Below are positions 6,301 to 30,145 of a stretch of DNA of 64,000 bases, piece by piece. The translations under genes and the position numbers were made by a program. Where the stretch lies: contig CAIKAD010000001.1 in assembly GCA_903825315.1 (NCBI GenBank), positions 248,001 through 312,000 of the forward strand, written 5' to 3'. Numbering within the stretch: the first letter of the stretch is position 1; each line of letters opens with the position of its first letter. The DNA is from an uncultured Candidatus Peregrinibacteria bacterium. GTDB taxonomy: Bacteria; Patescibacteriota; Gracilibacteria; Peribacterales; Peribacteraceae. The notes under the pieces are model-generated. The model saw only the letters and a list, made by a program, of their open reading frames with translations. It was not told the DNA's origin and did no database searches.

Positions 6301-8097
6301 CTATCTGCGCGCTCTGCGACGGTCATTATCCGTCAGTAACTTCTTCCGCAGCCGGATCGACTCCGGCGTCACTTCCACCAATTCATCATCCGCGATGTAC
6401 TCCAGTGCCTGCTCGAGGGACATCGGCTGCACGGGCGTGAGGACGATCGCCTCGTCCGACCCCGATGCACGCATGTTCGTCAGTTTTTTCTCCTTGCATG
6501 GGTTTACGGTCATCTCCTCATCCTTGGCGCTCTCACCAATAACCATGCCCTCATACACTTTGGTCTGTGGCGTAATGAAGAGGCGGCCGCGCTCCTGCAA
6601 ACCCCACAGTGCGAAGGCCACGGCAACGCCATTCTCCATGGAGATGAGGGAGCCGTGCGACTGACCCGTGAGTTCGCCTTTAAAAGGCTCATACGTGAGG
6701 AACGAGTGTGTGAGAATGCCTTCCCCACGCGTTTCGATGATAAAGTCCCCGCGAAAACCGAGGAGTCCGCGCGTGGGAACCTTGTATTCCAGGCGCGTGT
6801 GTCCTTCGTGGGACTTCATATCGAGCATTTCTCCCTTACGCTTGGCGAGCATTTCAATCACGGAGCCCGTAAACTCGTCCGGCACGTCGATGATGGCGTG
6901 CTCAATCGGTTCCTTCTCCACGCCGTCTTCCGTGCGCATGATTACTTCGGGACGTGAGACCTGGAGCTCGAACCCCTCACGGCGCATGTCTTCGATGAGT
7001 ACGGAAAGATGCAACTCGCCGCGTCCGGAAACTTTGTACGCGTCCGTCCCGGGGATGTCTTCCACCTGCAGTCCCACGTTCGTCTCTTTTTCCTTCTCCA
7101 GCCTTGCTTTGATGTGTCGGGTGGTCACGAGGGAGCCTTCCTTGCCCGCAAAGGGGGAGTTGTTGACGAGAAAGTTCATGGTGATGGTCGGCGGGTCGAT
7201 GCGGATCGCGGGGAGCAGCTCCGCATTCTCATCCGTCGTGATCGTTTCGCCCACGTAAATGTCCGGGATCCCTGCAATGGTCACAATGTCACCCGCGTGG
7301 GCCTCATTCACCTCAACACGCTTGAGCCCCTGAGAGACGAGCACCTTTGTAACCTTTGCCTTCCGAACCTTGCCGTCCGTCGTTTTCACAAATACCTGGT
7401 CGCCCGGTCGCGCGATGCCTTCGTAGACGCGGCCAATGGCTAATCTTCCGAGGTAGTTATCATAGGAAAGAGAGCTTGGTTGCATGCGAAAAGCTGTATC
7501 AATTCTTTGTTCAGCTTCGGGGACATGTTCCATGATCAGGTCGAAGAGAGGCGTGAGATCCGTAGCAGTATCATCTAGCTTCCTCTTGGCAATGCCCTCC
7601 CGTGCGATGGCGAAGATGTACGGAAAGTCCGTCTGTTTATCGTTGGCGCCGAGCGCCACAAAGAGATCGAACACCTCATCTACCACTTCGAGAGGACGGG
7701 CGGCAGGCTTATCAATTTTGTTGATGACGACTATCGGAAACAGCCCTAGCTGAAGCGACTTTTTGAGAACAAATTTTGTTTGCGGCATGGGGCCCTCCTG
7801 CGCGTCCACCAATAGAAGAACGCAGTCCACCGTCCGCAGGATCCGTTCCACTTCGGAGCCGAAGTCTGCGTGACCGGGCGTGTCCACAATGTTGATCTTG
7901 CAGTCCTTATACTGGATGGAGGTGTTCTTTGCGTAGATCGTGATACCGCGCTCCTTTTCCTGTGCGTTGCTATCCATCATAAGTTCGCCTACCTGCTCAT
8001 GCGCGGCAAATGCGCCACCCTGTTTTAAGAGGGCGTCCACGAGGGTGGTTTTGCCGTGGTCAACGTGCGCGATAATGGCGATATTCCGGATGGACAT
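6301..8097 (-). CDS. typA: TypA/BipA ribosome-associated GTPase
   Basis: [29 protein letters not shown]-like domains; TRGLLGFRGDF. Confidence 0.97.
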   Translation of the reverse strand: MSIRNIAIIAHVDHGKTTLVDALLKQGGAFAAHEQVGELMMDSNAQEKERGITIYAKNTSIQYKDCKINIVDTPGHADFGSEVERILRTVDCVLLLVDAQEGPMPQTKFVLKKSLQLGLFPIVVINKIDKPAARPLEVVDEVFDLFVALGANDKQTDFPYIFAIAREGIAKRKLDDTATDLTPLFDLIMEHVPEAEQRIDTAFRMQPSSLSYDNYLGRLAIGRVYEGIARPGDQVFVKTTDGKVRKAKVTKVLVSQGLKRVEVNEAHAGDIVTIAGIPDIYVGETITTDENAELLPAIRIDPPTITMNFLVNNSPFAGKEGSLVTTRHIKARLEKEKETNVGLQVEDIPGTDAYKVSGRGELHLSVLIEDMRREGFELQVSRPEVIMRTEDGVEKEPIEHAIIDVPDEFTGSVIEMLAKRKGEMLDMKSHEGHTRLEYKVPTRGLLGFRGDFIIETRGEGILTHSFLTYEPFKGELTGQSHGSLISMENGVAVAFALWGLQERGRLFITPQTKVYEGMVIGESAKDEEMTVNPCKEKKLTNMRASGSDEAIVLTPVQPMSLEQALEYIADDELVEVTPESIRLRKKLLTDNDRRRARR

Positions 8098-27469: not shown

Positions 27470-27592
27470 GAGGATGCAGAGGAATCAGAAGATGCAGAAG
27501 AATCAGAGGAATGAAATAGTACATCTTCCGTACCGGTATGTTACCACTCCTCTGATTCTTCTGAGACCTCTACATCTTCTGCATCCTCATTT
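27470..27592. repeat. word-type inverted repeat E6 (GGATGCAGAAGAATCAGA class)
   Basis: gaggatgcagaggaatcagaagatgcagaagaatcagaggaatg vs reverse complement gaggatgcagaagatgtagaggtctcagaagaatcagaggagtg. Confidence 0.92.
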
Positions 27593-28258
27593 CAAAGGTT
27601 TCTTCCCCGGCACCCCCACGTCCCGAGGATATTTATCCGACAATTTCCCAGCCTTCGTAAAGATCAGCAGTTGACGCTTCCCCCAGTCTCCCGGCAACTC
27701 ATAGGGATGCTGGCCGGTGAGATGGCAACTCAGTTCCGCGCGGGCGAGGAGGGAATCACGCAATTCCTGTTCCATATTCATGCTTTTCCAGAGGAGCACG
27801 ATACCGCCGGGTTTTACGAAGGGGCTCGTATACTCCAGCAGGACATTGAGCTCAGCGACGGCGCGTGAGGTTACGATATCAAACTGCTCGCGGTACTCCG
27901 GATTATGACCGTACTCTTCCGCCCGCCCTGCAACCACGCGGACATTGGTCAGTTGCATTTCATACGCGATACGACCCACCGCTTCCACTTTCTTCTGTAC
28001 CGAGTCGAGCCCCGTCAGCTGGGCGCGCGGCAGCGTGAGGGCGAGCGGGAGGAGGGGAAAGCCGCCGCCGGTCCCTACATCCAGGATCTTCGTCGCGGAA
28101 GTGACCTGTGGAAGATCGAGAGCTGCCAATGAATCAAGTACGTTCCCGATCCAGCATTGCTCCTCCGTGCGGAAGGCGCTCAGGTTAATCTTGGCGTTCT
28201 CTGCCAGGAAGACCGTGACGAGTGTGCGGAGACGGGGTTCGAGGTCGGAGGGAAGCAT
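27587..28258 (-). CDS. rsmG: 16S rRNA (guanine527-N7)-methyltransferase
   Basis: NLSAFRTEEQCWIGNVLDSLA; ILDVGTGGGFPLLPLAL; VTSRAVAELNVLLEY. Confidence 0.95.
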   Translation of the reverse strand: MLPSDLEPRLRTLVTVFLAENAKINLSAFRTEEQCWIGNVLDSLAALDLPQVTSATKILDVGTGGGFPLLPLALTLPRAQLTGLDSVQKKVEAVGRIAYEMQLTNVRVVAGRAEEYGHNPEYREQFDIVTSRAVAELNVLLEYTSPFVKPGGIVLLWKSMNMEQELRDSLLARAELSCHLTGQHPYELPGDWGKRQLLIFTKAGKLSDKYPRDVGVPGKKPLK

Positions 28259-28265
28259 GCGGACA

Positions 28266-29981
28266 TCATACTGCAGCTAAGGGCACTGTGGCAGGAACTT
28301 CTACGGTCGATCCCCGTGATTCCCTATGTCCTCCGGTGCGGTGCTGTTCCTTGTACAGCATGTAGTACATCGCATCGACGAACGCGGCTTGGCTTGCGTC
28401 AATGATGTTGCTGTCCATGCCTGTCGCGTAAAAGCATTCTTCGCCGTCCGTAAAATTGCAGACGACTTGCACGCGTGATGCTGTCCCTTCGCTGGATATC
28501 TCGTGCACGTTGTAGTGCCTCAGTTGCAGATTTTGTACGACAGGGAATTCCTTTTCCAACGCAGATGTGAGCGCGGCGCTTGCTGCGTCAACGGGCCCTT
28601 TCTTGTGGATCGATGGTGAATGGTGGTGATGATTATTCCGCCCGCCGTTCATTTCCACTTCCACGGTAGCGTCCGTCCCCGTTTTACTATCGGCATTCCA
28701 CTTGGTGTCCACGAGACGGAAGGGGGGATGGAAATACCCAAACTTCTCTAGCGCGCGCAAAAGAAAAGAAACTTTAGCCTGCAAGTACGAGATGCCATTC
28801 TCATGTTCCTCCTTGAGGAAGGTGAGAAGTGCACGCGCATTCGTTTCCTGCGAGAGCTCCTCCCGCACATCAGGGGGAAGTACGGTGCATTCATTCAGAA
28901 ACTCCACTATCGTCGAGACGCCCGCATCTTCACTGAGGATCACATATCCCGCATTGCCCACTTCCTCAGGACGAATATGCTCATATGCTTTCGTTCGTTC
29001 CTCTTTTGTCCTGGAGTTTCCCGAGGTGTGCATCCCGGCTTTATGGGAGAACGCATCGGGACCAACATACGGCGCATCGGGTCGAATGGGTATGTCCAGC
29101 AATTCCGCAGCACGGCGTGCGTTGGGTGTGAGTTCGCGCAGCGCTCCCGGCCGGAGAATGTCATATCCCATCTGTGACAAATTTCCCACAACAGCTTCCA
29201 GCTTTGCCATACCGGTACGTTCGGAGAGTCCGCCTCGTGTCACGTGGGCGTGATCTGCGCCTCCCGCAACTGCGGCACACACGTTTGCCGTCCCGCAGTC
29301 TCGGTCATTGTGGCCGTGGTATCCGAGATGCTTCTGCCATCCGAAAAGCCGGCGCAGTTTTCGGAATGTCTCATACACGCCGTCCTGCATTTTTCCATGG
29401 TCTTCACAGGGATAGGGAAAGTCGCGTCCTGTCGTATCGCAAACAACGAAAGTATCCGCTCCGGCGTCGAAGGCCAGTTCCATGAGCCGGTGGACATAAT
29501 CGGGATTCTCCAGGAGGCCATCGGAAGCCATCTCGCCGTCCAGAATGACGCGAGCGCCTGTCTCGCTACGTATGTAGCGGATGGAATCGGTGATGATCGC
29601 CAGGTTGGTTTCCGGATCCACGCGAAGTTCCTGGCGGGCATGACGGTCCGATGCTTTTCCCACGAGCGTGACGATCGGTGCGCCAACCTGGATGAGCGCT
29701 TGCATTCCGGCGTCCTCTTGTGCGGTTTTGTGGGGATGGCGCGTTTTGCCAAAAGAGGCATAGAGGGTGGGTAAGTAACGCTCCCGAAAGTCCGCTGCCA
29801 TGCGGAAGACTTTCTTTGCGGATTTGTTCGATTCGGGAAAAGCGAGTTCCGTGATGTCGATACCGAGTTCGGCATCCAAAGCCCACAGACCGATGCGTTG
29901 CTCGGGGGTGAGCTTGAGGTGCGGGGACTGCCCCATGTCCCGTACGGTATCCAGTAATTCGACCCGTCGACTGTGTTCCAT
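28266..29981 (-). CDS. cimA: (R)-citramalate synthase / isopropylmalate-synthase family enzyme
   Basis: VELLDTVRDMGQ; VTLVGKASDRHARQELR; VILDGEMASDG; HGHNDRDCGTANVCAAVAGGA; HKAGMHTSG; C-terminal LeuA-type regulatory domain. Confidence 0.78.
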   Translation of the reverse strand: MEHSRRVELLDTVRDMGQSPHLKLTPEQRIGLWALDAELGIDITELAFPESNKSAKKVFRMAADFRERYLPTLYASFGKTRHPHKTAQEDAGMQALIQVGAPIVTLVGKASDRHARQELRVDPETNLAIITDSIRYIRSETGARVILDGEMASDGLLENPDYVHRLMELAFDAGADTFVVCDTTGRDFPYPCEDHGKMQDGVYETFRKLRRLFGWQKHLGYHGHNDRDCGTANVCAAVAGGADHAHVTRGGLSERTGMAKLEAVVGNLSQMGYDILRPGALRELTPNARRAAELLDIPIRPDAPYVGPDAFSHKAGMHTSGNSRTKEERTKAYEHIRPEEVGNAGYVILSEDAGVSTIVEFLNECTVLPPDVREELSQETNARALLTFLKEEHENGISYLQAKVSFLLRALEKFGYFHPPFRLVDTKWNADSKTGTDATVEVEMNGGRNNHHHHSPSIHKKGPVDAASAALTSALEKEFPVVQNLQLRHYNVHEISSEGTASRVQVVCNFTDGEECFYATGMDSNIIDASQAAFVDAMYYMLYKEQHRTGGHRESRGSTVEVPATVPLAAV

Positions 29982-30002
29982 GTTGAGAAAAGTAATAAAT
30001 AC

Positions 30003-30025
30003 AAAAAATCCCGCTCGGCGCGGGA
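30003..30025 (-). terminator. attenuator terminator in the cimA leader
   Basis: Minus strand TCCCGC-GCCGA-GCGGGA followed by TTTTTTGT. Confidence 0.82.
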
Positions 30026-30051
30026 GGGAGAATGTGTGGTCAGTCAGCTCC

Positions 30052-30108
30052 TCACGCCGTGGTCGGGGTGATAATAATGATATTGGCGATGATTGCGCGG
30101 CGTTGCAT
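30052..30108 (-). CDS. Ile-rich leader peptide MQRRAIIANIIIITPTTA
   Basis: 19 codons including stop, six Ile codons, immediately upstream of the attenuator terminator. Confidence 0.78.
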   Translation of the reverse strand: MQRRAIIANIIIITPTTA

Positions 30109-30117
30109 GACAGCAGC

Positions 30118-30145
30118 AGTGTACTCAGGAACTAAACCCTGTCAA
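30118..30145 (-). promoter_or_regulatory. sigma-70-type promoter of the leader (TTGACA-16-TACACT)
   Basis: Consensus -35 TTGACA at 30140-30145, -10 TACACT at 30118-30123; ATG lies 9 nt beyond the -10. Confidence 0.65.

Follow-up and report, generated by a model that had tools for sequence, protein, structure and literature searches.

A probable isoleucine-responsive attenuator with a putatively leaderless leader peptide upstream of cimA, conserved in front of changing enzymes in a family of CPR bacteria

In the proteobacterial attenuators, such as those of trp, his and ilv in Escherichia coli, the alternative RNA pairings 1:2, 2:3 and 3:4 are combined with a leader peptide that carries a run of the residue matching the pathway. 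Attenuators have also been described in Actinobacteria, upstream of ilvB, leuS and trpS (PMC1262725), and the same source describes the cysteine leaders of mycobacteria as having no obvious terminator. Leaderless short ORFs encoding polycysteine are reported to act as attenuators in mycobacteria (Canestrari et al. 2020, via PMC9031893), and transcription of the leader peptide of Corynebacterium glutamicum ilvBNC is reported to start one nucleotide from the start codon (PMC11857589, citing Morbach et al. 2000). The locus described here resembles the C. glutamicum one in having a branched-chain leader peptide (theirs is MTIIRLVVVTARRLP) and a predicted choice between terminator and antiterminator, and the C. 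glutamicum leader is described in that account as having no ribosome binding site. With the mycobacterial ORFs it shares a short ORF, probably leaderless here, and a residue run, which in mycobacteria is described as responding to the amino acid.

The window, that is, the whole stretch of DNA analyzed, comprises 64,000 nucleotides (positions 248,001 to 312,000 of contig CAIKAD010000001.1, assembly GCA_903825315.1) of an uncultured Candidatus Peregrinibacteria bacterium, whose genome (G000; 1,289,142 bases, GC 0.557) is 99.6% complete. We consider it highly probable, from the sequence and its relatives, that a ribosome-mediated transcription attenuator with a leaderless leader, reading the supply of charged isoleucyl-tRNA, controls the citramalate-synthase-like gene cimA in this organism. 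A first-pass annotation had put forward the promoter, ORF and terminator elements of such a device, and all of them were found on the minus strand at the positions it gave:

30118 to 30145, minus strand: promoter TTGACA-16-TACACT, matching sigma-70 at 10 of 12 positions (-35 TTGACA at 30145-30140, 16-nt spacer, -10 TACACT at 30123-30118).
30052 to 30108, minus strand: leader ORF MQRRAIIANIIIITPTTA, 18 codons, six of them for Ile (ATG at 30108, TGA at 30054-30052).
30046 to 30059, minus strand: segment 2 CGGCGUGAGGAGC, 5' side of the antiterminator, overlapping the leader stop codon.
30017 to 30027, minus strand: segment 3 CCUCCCGCGCC, with segment 2 (antiterminator) and segment 4 (terminator) as alternative partners.
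30003 to 30025, minus strand: intrinsic terminator TCCCGC-GCCGA-GCGGGA-TTTTTT, the 3:4 helix (stem 30025-30009, T6 30008-30003).
28266 to 29981, minus strand: cimA, citramalate-synthase-like, 571 aa (ATG at 29981), with HMGL-like and LeuA_dimer domains (Pfam).
27587 to 28258, minus strand: rsmG (TIGR00138), the downstream neighbor that genomes of the same genus keep beside the exchanged gene.

The ATG of the leader ORF lies 9 nt downstream of the -10 box, and the terminator sits between this ORF and cimA, whose best family is TIGR00977 (E=1.1e-85), with 287.9 bits against an equivalog cut-off of 450. The upstream position and the terminator are also features of T-boxes, which sense tRNA, and of metabolite riboswitches, in which case the ORF would be incidental. 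This explanation is extremely improbable: the search of the leader against Rfam, amino acid leaders, T-boxes and riboswitches included, returned no family at the gathering threshold and, at E<=10, only sub-threshold matches to unrelated RNAs with E>=3. Moreover, since the leader measures about 105 nt and the ORF takes up half of it, little room is left for the stem I of a T-box.

The whole genome was also scanned for the same architecture, defined as a promoter, a start codon 5-12 nt past the -10 box that opens an 8-40-codon ORF, and a terminator. Among 25 promoter-ORF combinations, three had a terminator (the cimA leader, a Val leader and an unconvincing one), and two of these three, the cimA leader and MRRSVVVSVLLTVAP, are enriched in a single branched-chain residue. 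In six size-matched Markov genomes the scan returned 18-33 combinations each, of which none or one had a terminator, and no single-residue-rich ORF; the architecture of the cimA leader exceeds chance expectation.

From these parts we infer how the switch would start, sense isoleucine and choose between its two folds. The transcript would probably begin 0-4 nt upstream of the leader ATG, where the ribosome would initiate without a Shine-Dalgarno (SD) sequence. When isoleucine suffices, a ribosome at the stop codon would cover segment 2, and the 3:4 terminator would form ahead of cimA; when isoleucine is short, the ribosome would stall in the Ile run, leaving segment 2 free to pair with segment 3, and this 2:3 pairing would block the terminator so that cimA is transcribed. 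In untranslated RNA of most relatives, a third hairpin, formed by the Ile-codon region and the sequence after the stop codon, would hold segment 2; it is predicted to be weak in the window species.

Folding with a simulated ribosome is consistent with this scheme. A ribosome at the stop codon left the 3:4 terminator in 11/11 leaders tested (-11.7 kcal/mol in the window leader), and in 9/11 the 2:3 antiterminator resulted from a stall at one or more of the Ile codons. In the remaining two (L002 and L007) the minimum-energy fold retains the terminator on an Ile stall, as it also does for some stall positions in the other nine leaders; the window leader, in which the 2:3 duplex has -17.2 kcal/mol, yields the antiterminator at every Ile stall position. 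The 1:2 hairpin of the conserved type, in which the Ile-codon region pairs with the sequence just past the stop, is weak in the window leader (-3.0 kcal/mol), and the minimum-energy fold of this leader with no ribosome is the antiterminator, so basal control may be leaky here. The complementarities ACGCCG/CGGCGT and GGCGTG/CGCGCC, to which the first-pass annotation had drawn attention, do exist, but the former, which it took for the 1:2 helix, differs from the 1:2 conserved in relatives and appears solely in short nascent RNA (-9.5 kcal/mol).

Covariation was assessed by an alignment-free partner-swap test, in which the pairing of a segment with its own partner is compared with its pairing with the partner of another species. 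Across 30 leaders the matched pairings were the stronger ones for 1:2 (-12.06 vs -9.83 kcal/mol, p=2e-5), 2:3 (-16.94 vs -15.69 kcal/mol, p=4e-5) and 3:4 (-12.38 vs -10.43 kcal/mol, p=2e-5), p values that take no account of kinship among the leaders, while five control pairings were flat (p 0.37 to 0.89). These comparisons support the three helices across the 30 leaders. When 13 leaders were anchored on the stop codon, 1:2 was weak (p=0.018) and 2:3 null (p=0.70), a failure explained by the stop codon lying in different frames between species. Re-anchoring the same 13 on the conserved GGCG of segment 2, invariant in the first 11 leaders, gave p=0.0004 (1:2) and p=0.007 (2:3), the anchor having been chosen after the stop-anchored result was seen; the 30-leader test reused it, falling back on another anchor for leaders that lack GGCG, and because 13 of its 30 leaders are shared, its independence from that choice is only partial. 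RNAalifold predicted the 2:3 antiterminator unprompted for the first 11 leaders; on the MAFFT alignment it returned this helix only and gave it no covariation support, because alignment gaps misplace the terminator arms.

The start codon lies 7-12 nt past the -10 box in 30/30 leaders, and TTGAC(A/T/G)-16-TAnnnT precedes it in 29 of them (the spacer is 17 in one). Among the starts of 478 long ORFs of the window genome, 6.5% carry SD cores, as do 13.4% of control positions, and 22% have TAnnnT at a distance of 7-11 nt upstream (controls 2-5%), which suggests widespread leaderless mRNAs in this organism; because SD sequences are depleted and -10 boxes adjoin start codons throughout the genome, leaderless initiation would be ordinary here. 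An attenuator whose leader peptide has a longer 5' UTR ahead of it, with a start site further upstream, would fit a -10 box (TACACT) that deviates from consensus at two positions, and transcription starts are invisible in DNA. The promoter pair and start distance common to the 30 leaders and the genome-wide pattern of start sites nevertheless make that arrangement improbable, and they support the earlier suggestion that the leader peptide is probably leaderless. As separate observations on the window genome, -10-like boxes peak 6-9 nt before start codons, and an apparent 16S rRNA 3' end (L185, about position 7503; C5:105002, plus strand) reads GGATGGAACATCTCCTTACC instead of the usual GGATCACCTCCTT, with changes that include the anti-SD core (CACCTCC to CATCTCC).

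Orthologues of cimA occur in the window genome and in 11 other genomes of the family, whereas the same-genus genomes have none; eight full-length orthologues are 31-37% identical to the window protein, and the best local match reaches 38%. An Ile leader with the same promoter geometry and a terminator is present at 12/12 of these loci (for instance MTNRSTIISIIIIQAPRR, MKRSIIIRSIIITRAPRR and MAQRAIISSIITPAQTA), a count obtained independently of any RNA search. The loss of the Ile run in relatives had been named at first pass as an observation that would speak against attenuation; the check was run, and the run is kept in all 12. The association appears to be family-specific, since cimA orthologues in the same class but outside the family have no Ile leader upstream (one of them, from a class-mate, holds 24 in-frame TGA codons, as in Gracilibacteria-type lineages). 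A covariance model built from 13 leaders and searched in 74 family genomes matched 31 of them at E<=1.1e-9; these belong to 16 genera, and 18 lay outside the training set. Strong matches are nearly always one per genome and, in the whole class (359 genomes), confined to the family, while weaker ones outside it include similar devices with other targets. An Ile-rich ORF is found in 30/30 homologous leaders, with 145 Ile among 547 residues.

What stands behind the leader varies. The cargo of the 30 loci read was cimA in 12, ilvA in 10, an HMGL paralogue in three and genes of unknown function in five; two of the 10 ilvA genes were compared with the IlvA/THD1 models and reached 360-391 bits, a little short of cut-off, and the other eight were identified by resemblance. 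In textbook metabolism the isoleucine precursor 2-oxobutyrate is reached by two entries, threonine deaminase and citramalate synthase, and the cargo consists mostly of entry enzymes to this amino acid. Because relatives keep the same switch while the enzyme behind it changes, it is very likely that the leader is a real isoleucine sensor. In four of the 10 ilvA loci (L260, L264, L274, L283) a small ORF lies between the leader and ilvA; two of the small proteins, tested against Pfam, gave no match, and those of G052 and G047 are similar by eye. In G012 the order is an intact leader, a small ORF, a second, degenerate attenuator with no usable ORF (L292, C18:16827-16933) and, directly after it, ilvA. 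In G057 (L300/L326) the Ile leader VNFKSAIISFIIVTAFKRS is followed by a small ORF and by genes that resemble, by eye, a branched-chain amino acid ABC transporter.

The change of enzyme can be followed at a fixed site. In G013 and G014, which belong to the genus of the window organism, the order is pyrE (on the opposite strand), Ile leader, ilvA, rsmG and a gene that we take by resemblance to be rlmE; G014 additionally has presumed pheS upstream and presumed ftsE-like and purM-like genes downstream, named in the same way. This order recurs in the window genome, except that cimA replaces ilvA and one extra ORF lies beside pyrE; its neighbors are 43-77% identical to their G014 orthologues, its rsmG being 62-63% identical to the G013 and G014 copies, and tblastn of the genome for ilvA found none (best E=0.32). 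Within this genus, as read from the sequences, ilvA was exchanged for cimA and the neighbors were kept. A similar pattern is seen in genus g32, with cimA in G051 vs ilvA in G050, G052 and G054 and with shared downstream neighbors.

Other leaders of the same build carry other residues. Leu runs precede leuA (2-isopropylmalate synthase), and the Thr run MHLLRTTTTTTTTPMRRS precedes thrS in G018 (TIGR00418, above cut-off); these residue-matched pairs support the specificity predicted for the Ile run. The Leu-run leaders (L249-L256, such as MHQRNLLLGLALLLLTAEGRLRA) lie before leuA homologues, and most share the promoter-to-start geometry; in several, an in-frame palindrome-like insert (CCCTGAGC..GTCGAAGGG) lengthens the peptide and leaves it unbroken. 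A second Thr-run leader, MNRLSFVTTTTTTTTSLRNRG (L306), occurs in G232, a genome of another family, beside that of G018 (L305). Val/Leu-rich leaderless leaders with terminators (L172:12330-12463, that is, G000 C2:285330, plus strand; L291; L310), namely the MRRSVVVSVLLTVAP mentioned above, MQSVRVVVSLVLVAVPRIGA and MSQLNTLISLVLVVVVP, occur in three genomes, ahead of a gene that by eye is a UvrD-like helicase; the window genome has between the two a 130-aa ORF with no match in the other family genomes.

It could be argued that the terminator is a constitutive one, the Ile-rich ORF a coincidence and cimA not regulated at all, since the case for regulation is drawn from sequence and low-complexity ATC/ATT repeats can come from slippage. 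We find this very improbable in view of the covariation of the antiterminator, the conserved presence of the device across 31 genomes and 16 genera, the match between residue and gene in the pairs just described and the fact that simulated genomes gave nothing similar. The Ile-codon attenuation put forward at first pass is thus supported by the 12/12 cimA orthologues, the presence of the same device before ilvA, the residue-gene matches and the helix covariation.

The metabolic setting is less simple than the fit to a citramalate/isoleucine pathway that had been proposed: the cargo does correspond to isoleucine entry steps, but ilvC and ilvD are missing. IlvD and a true IlvC are found only in G015 (IlvD being absent from 73/74 family genomes), the other IlvC matches being weak and probably general nucleotide-binding proteins; the controls of this search were positive in 14/14 genomes. 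A real acetolactate synthase occurs in 5/74 genomes, and leuC is above cut-off only in G015 and the window genome, being absent from the other 11 cimA genomes; attenuators before leuA, cimA and ilvA are common in the family despite the scarcity of ilvC, ilvD and leuC. With IlvD, IlvC and acetolactate synthase mostly absent, isoleucine synthesis by known enzymes is incomplete, and the entry step appears to be regulated as if isoleucine were the product, though the known route to it is missing. Few amino acid biosynthesis genes are also reported for the possibly related Ca. Peribacter (PMC4736985).

It is possible, if rather doubtful, that isoleucine is sensed but not for its own synthesis, 2-oxobutyrate or citramalate serving another use or exchange with a partner cell and isoleucyl-tRNA charging being a nutrient signal; such a reading bears on what the switch is for and not on how it works. 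The lack of ilvC and ilvD in 73/74 genomes, of leuC in 72/74 and of acetolactate synthase in 69/74 speaks for such a purpose, as does the G057 leader with its transporter-like genes, whereas the cargo enzymes are specifically isoleucine entry steps and the window genome pairs leuC and leuD with cimA. There, leuC and leuD are adjacent and both above their cut-offs, and a leuB-like ORF comes next, scoring 106.6 bits against TIGR00169 across just its C-terminal half; together they are what cimA needs, and they would make up the citramalate pathway to 2-oxobutyrate. We see about an even chance that this leaderless Ile attenuator, which is conserved and usually present as one copy per genome, marks a site of enzyme exchange in this CPR lineage (ilvA, cimA, an HMGL paralogue and unknowns), in cells that have no known enzymes from 2-oxobutyrate to isoleucine and would use either an unknown isoleucine route or the intermediate for another purpose or partner.

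CPR cells are mostly uncultured and their regulation is little known. A switch of this kind may reveal which amino acids they monitor, and it points to a testable hole in isoleucine metabolism. The regulator would outlive the enzyme that it controls, and the residue code of the leaders can help to assign functions to unknown genes downstream. A full-text literature search, with subscription journals mostly outside its reach, found no paper linking CPR bacteria with leader-peptide attenuation and, for citramalate synthase with such a leader, only one paper, on metabolic engineering, in which the terms occur.

The 1:2 / 2:3 / 3:4 logic and the matching residue run are shared with E. coli trp, his and ilv, in which translation of the leader is SD-led and the sequences and target genes differ. 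The C. glutamicum system, as described, is actinobacterial, controls ilvBNC and has mixed Val/Leu/Ile codons; in the leaders of this family the runs are of Ile, the genes behind them are cimA or ilvA and the promoter spacer is 16 nt in 29/30, and we claim no sequence relation. The mycobacterial leaders use cysteine, while those of the family conserve a clear intrinsic terminator and antiterminator. The actinobacterial attenuators (PMC1262725) belong to another phylum and have another target set, although there, as here with the Thr leader before thrS, both biosynthetic and aminoacyl-tRNA synthetase genes are targets. Because leaderless attenuators are known in Actinobacteria, the Ile leader is of a kind already known; it is absent from Rfam and, in the literature searched, unreported for CPR-type bacteria, and the history of its cargo is unusual.
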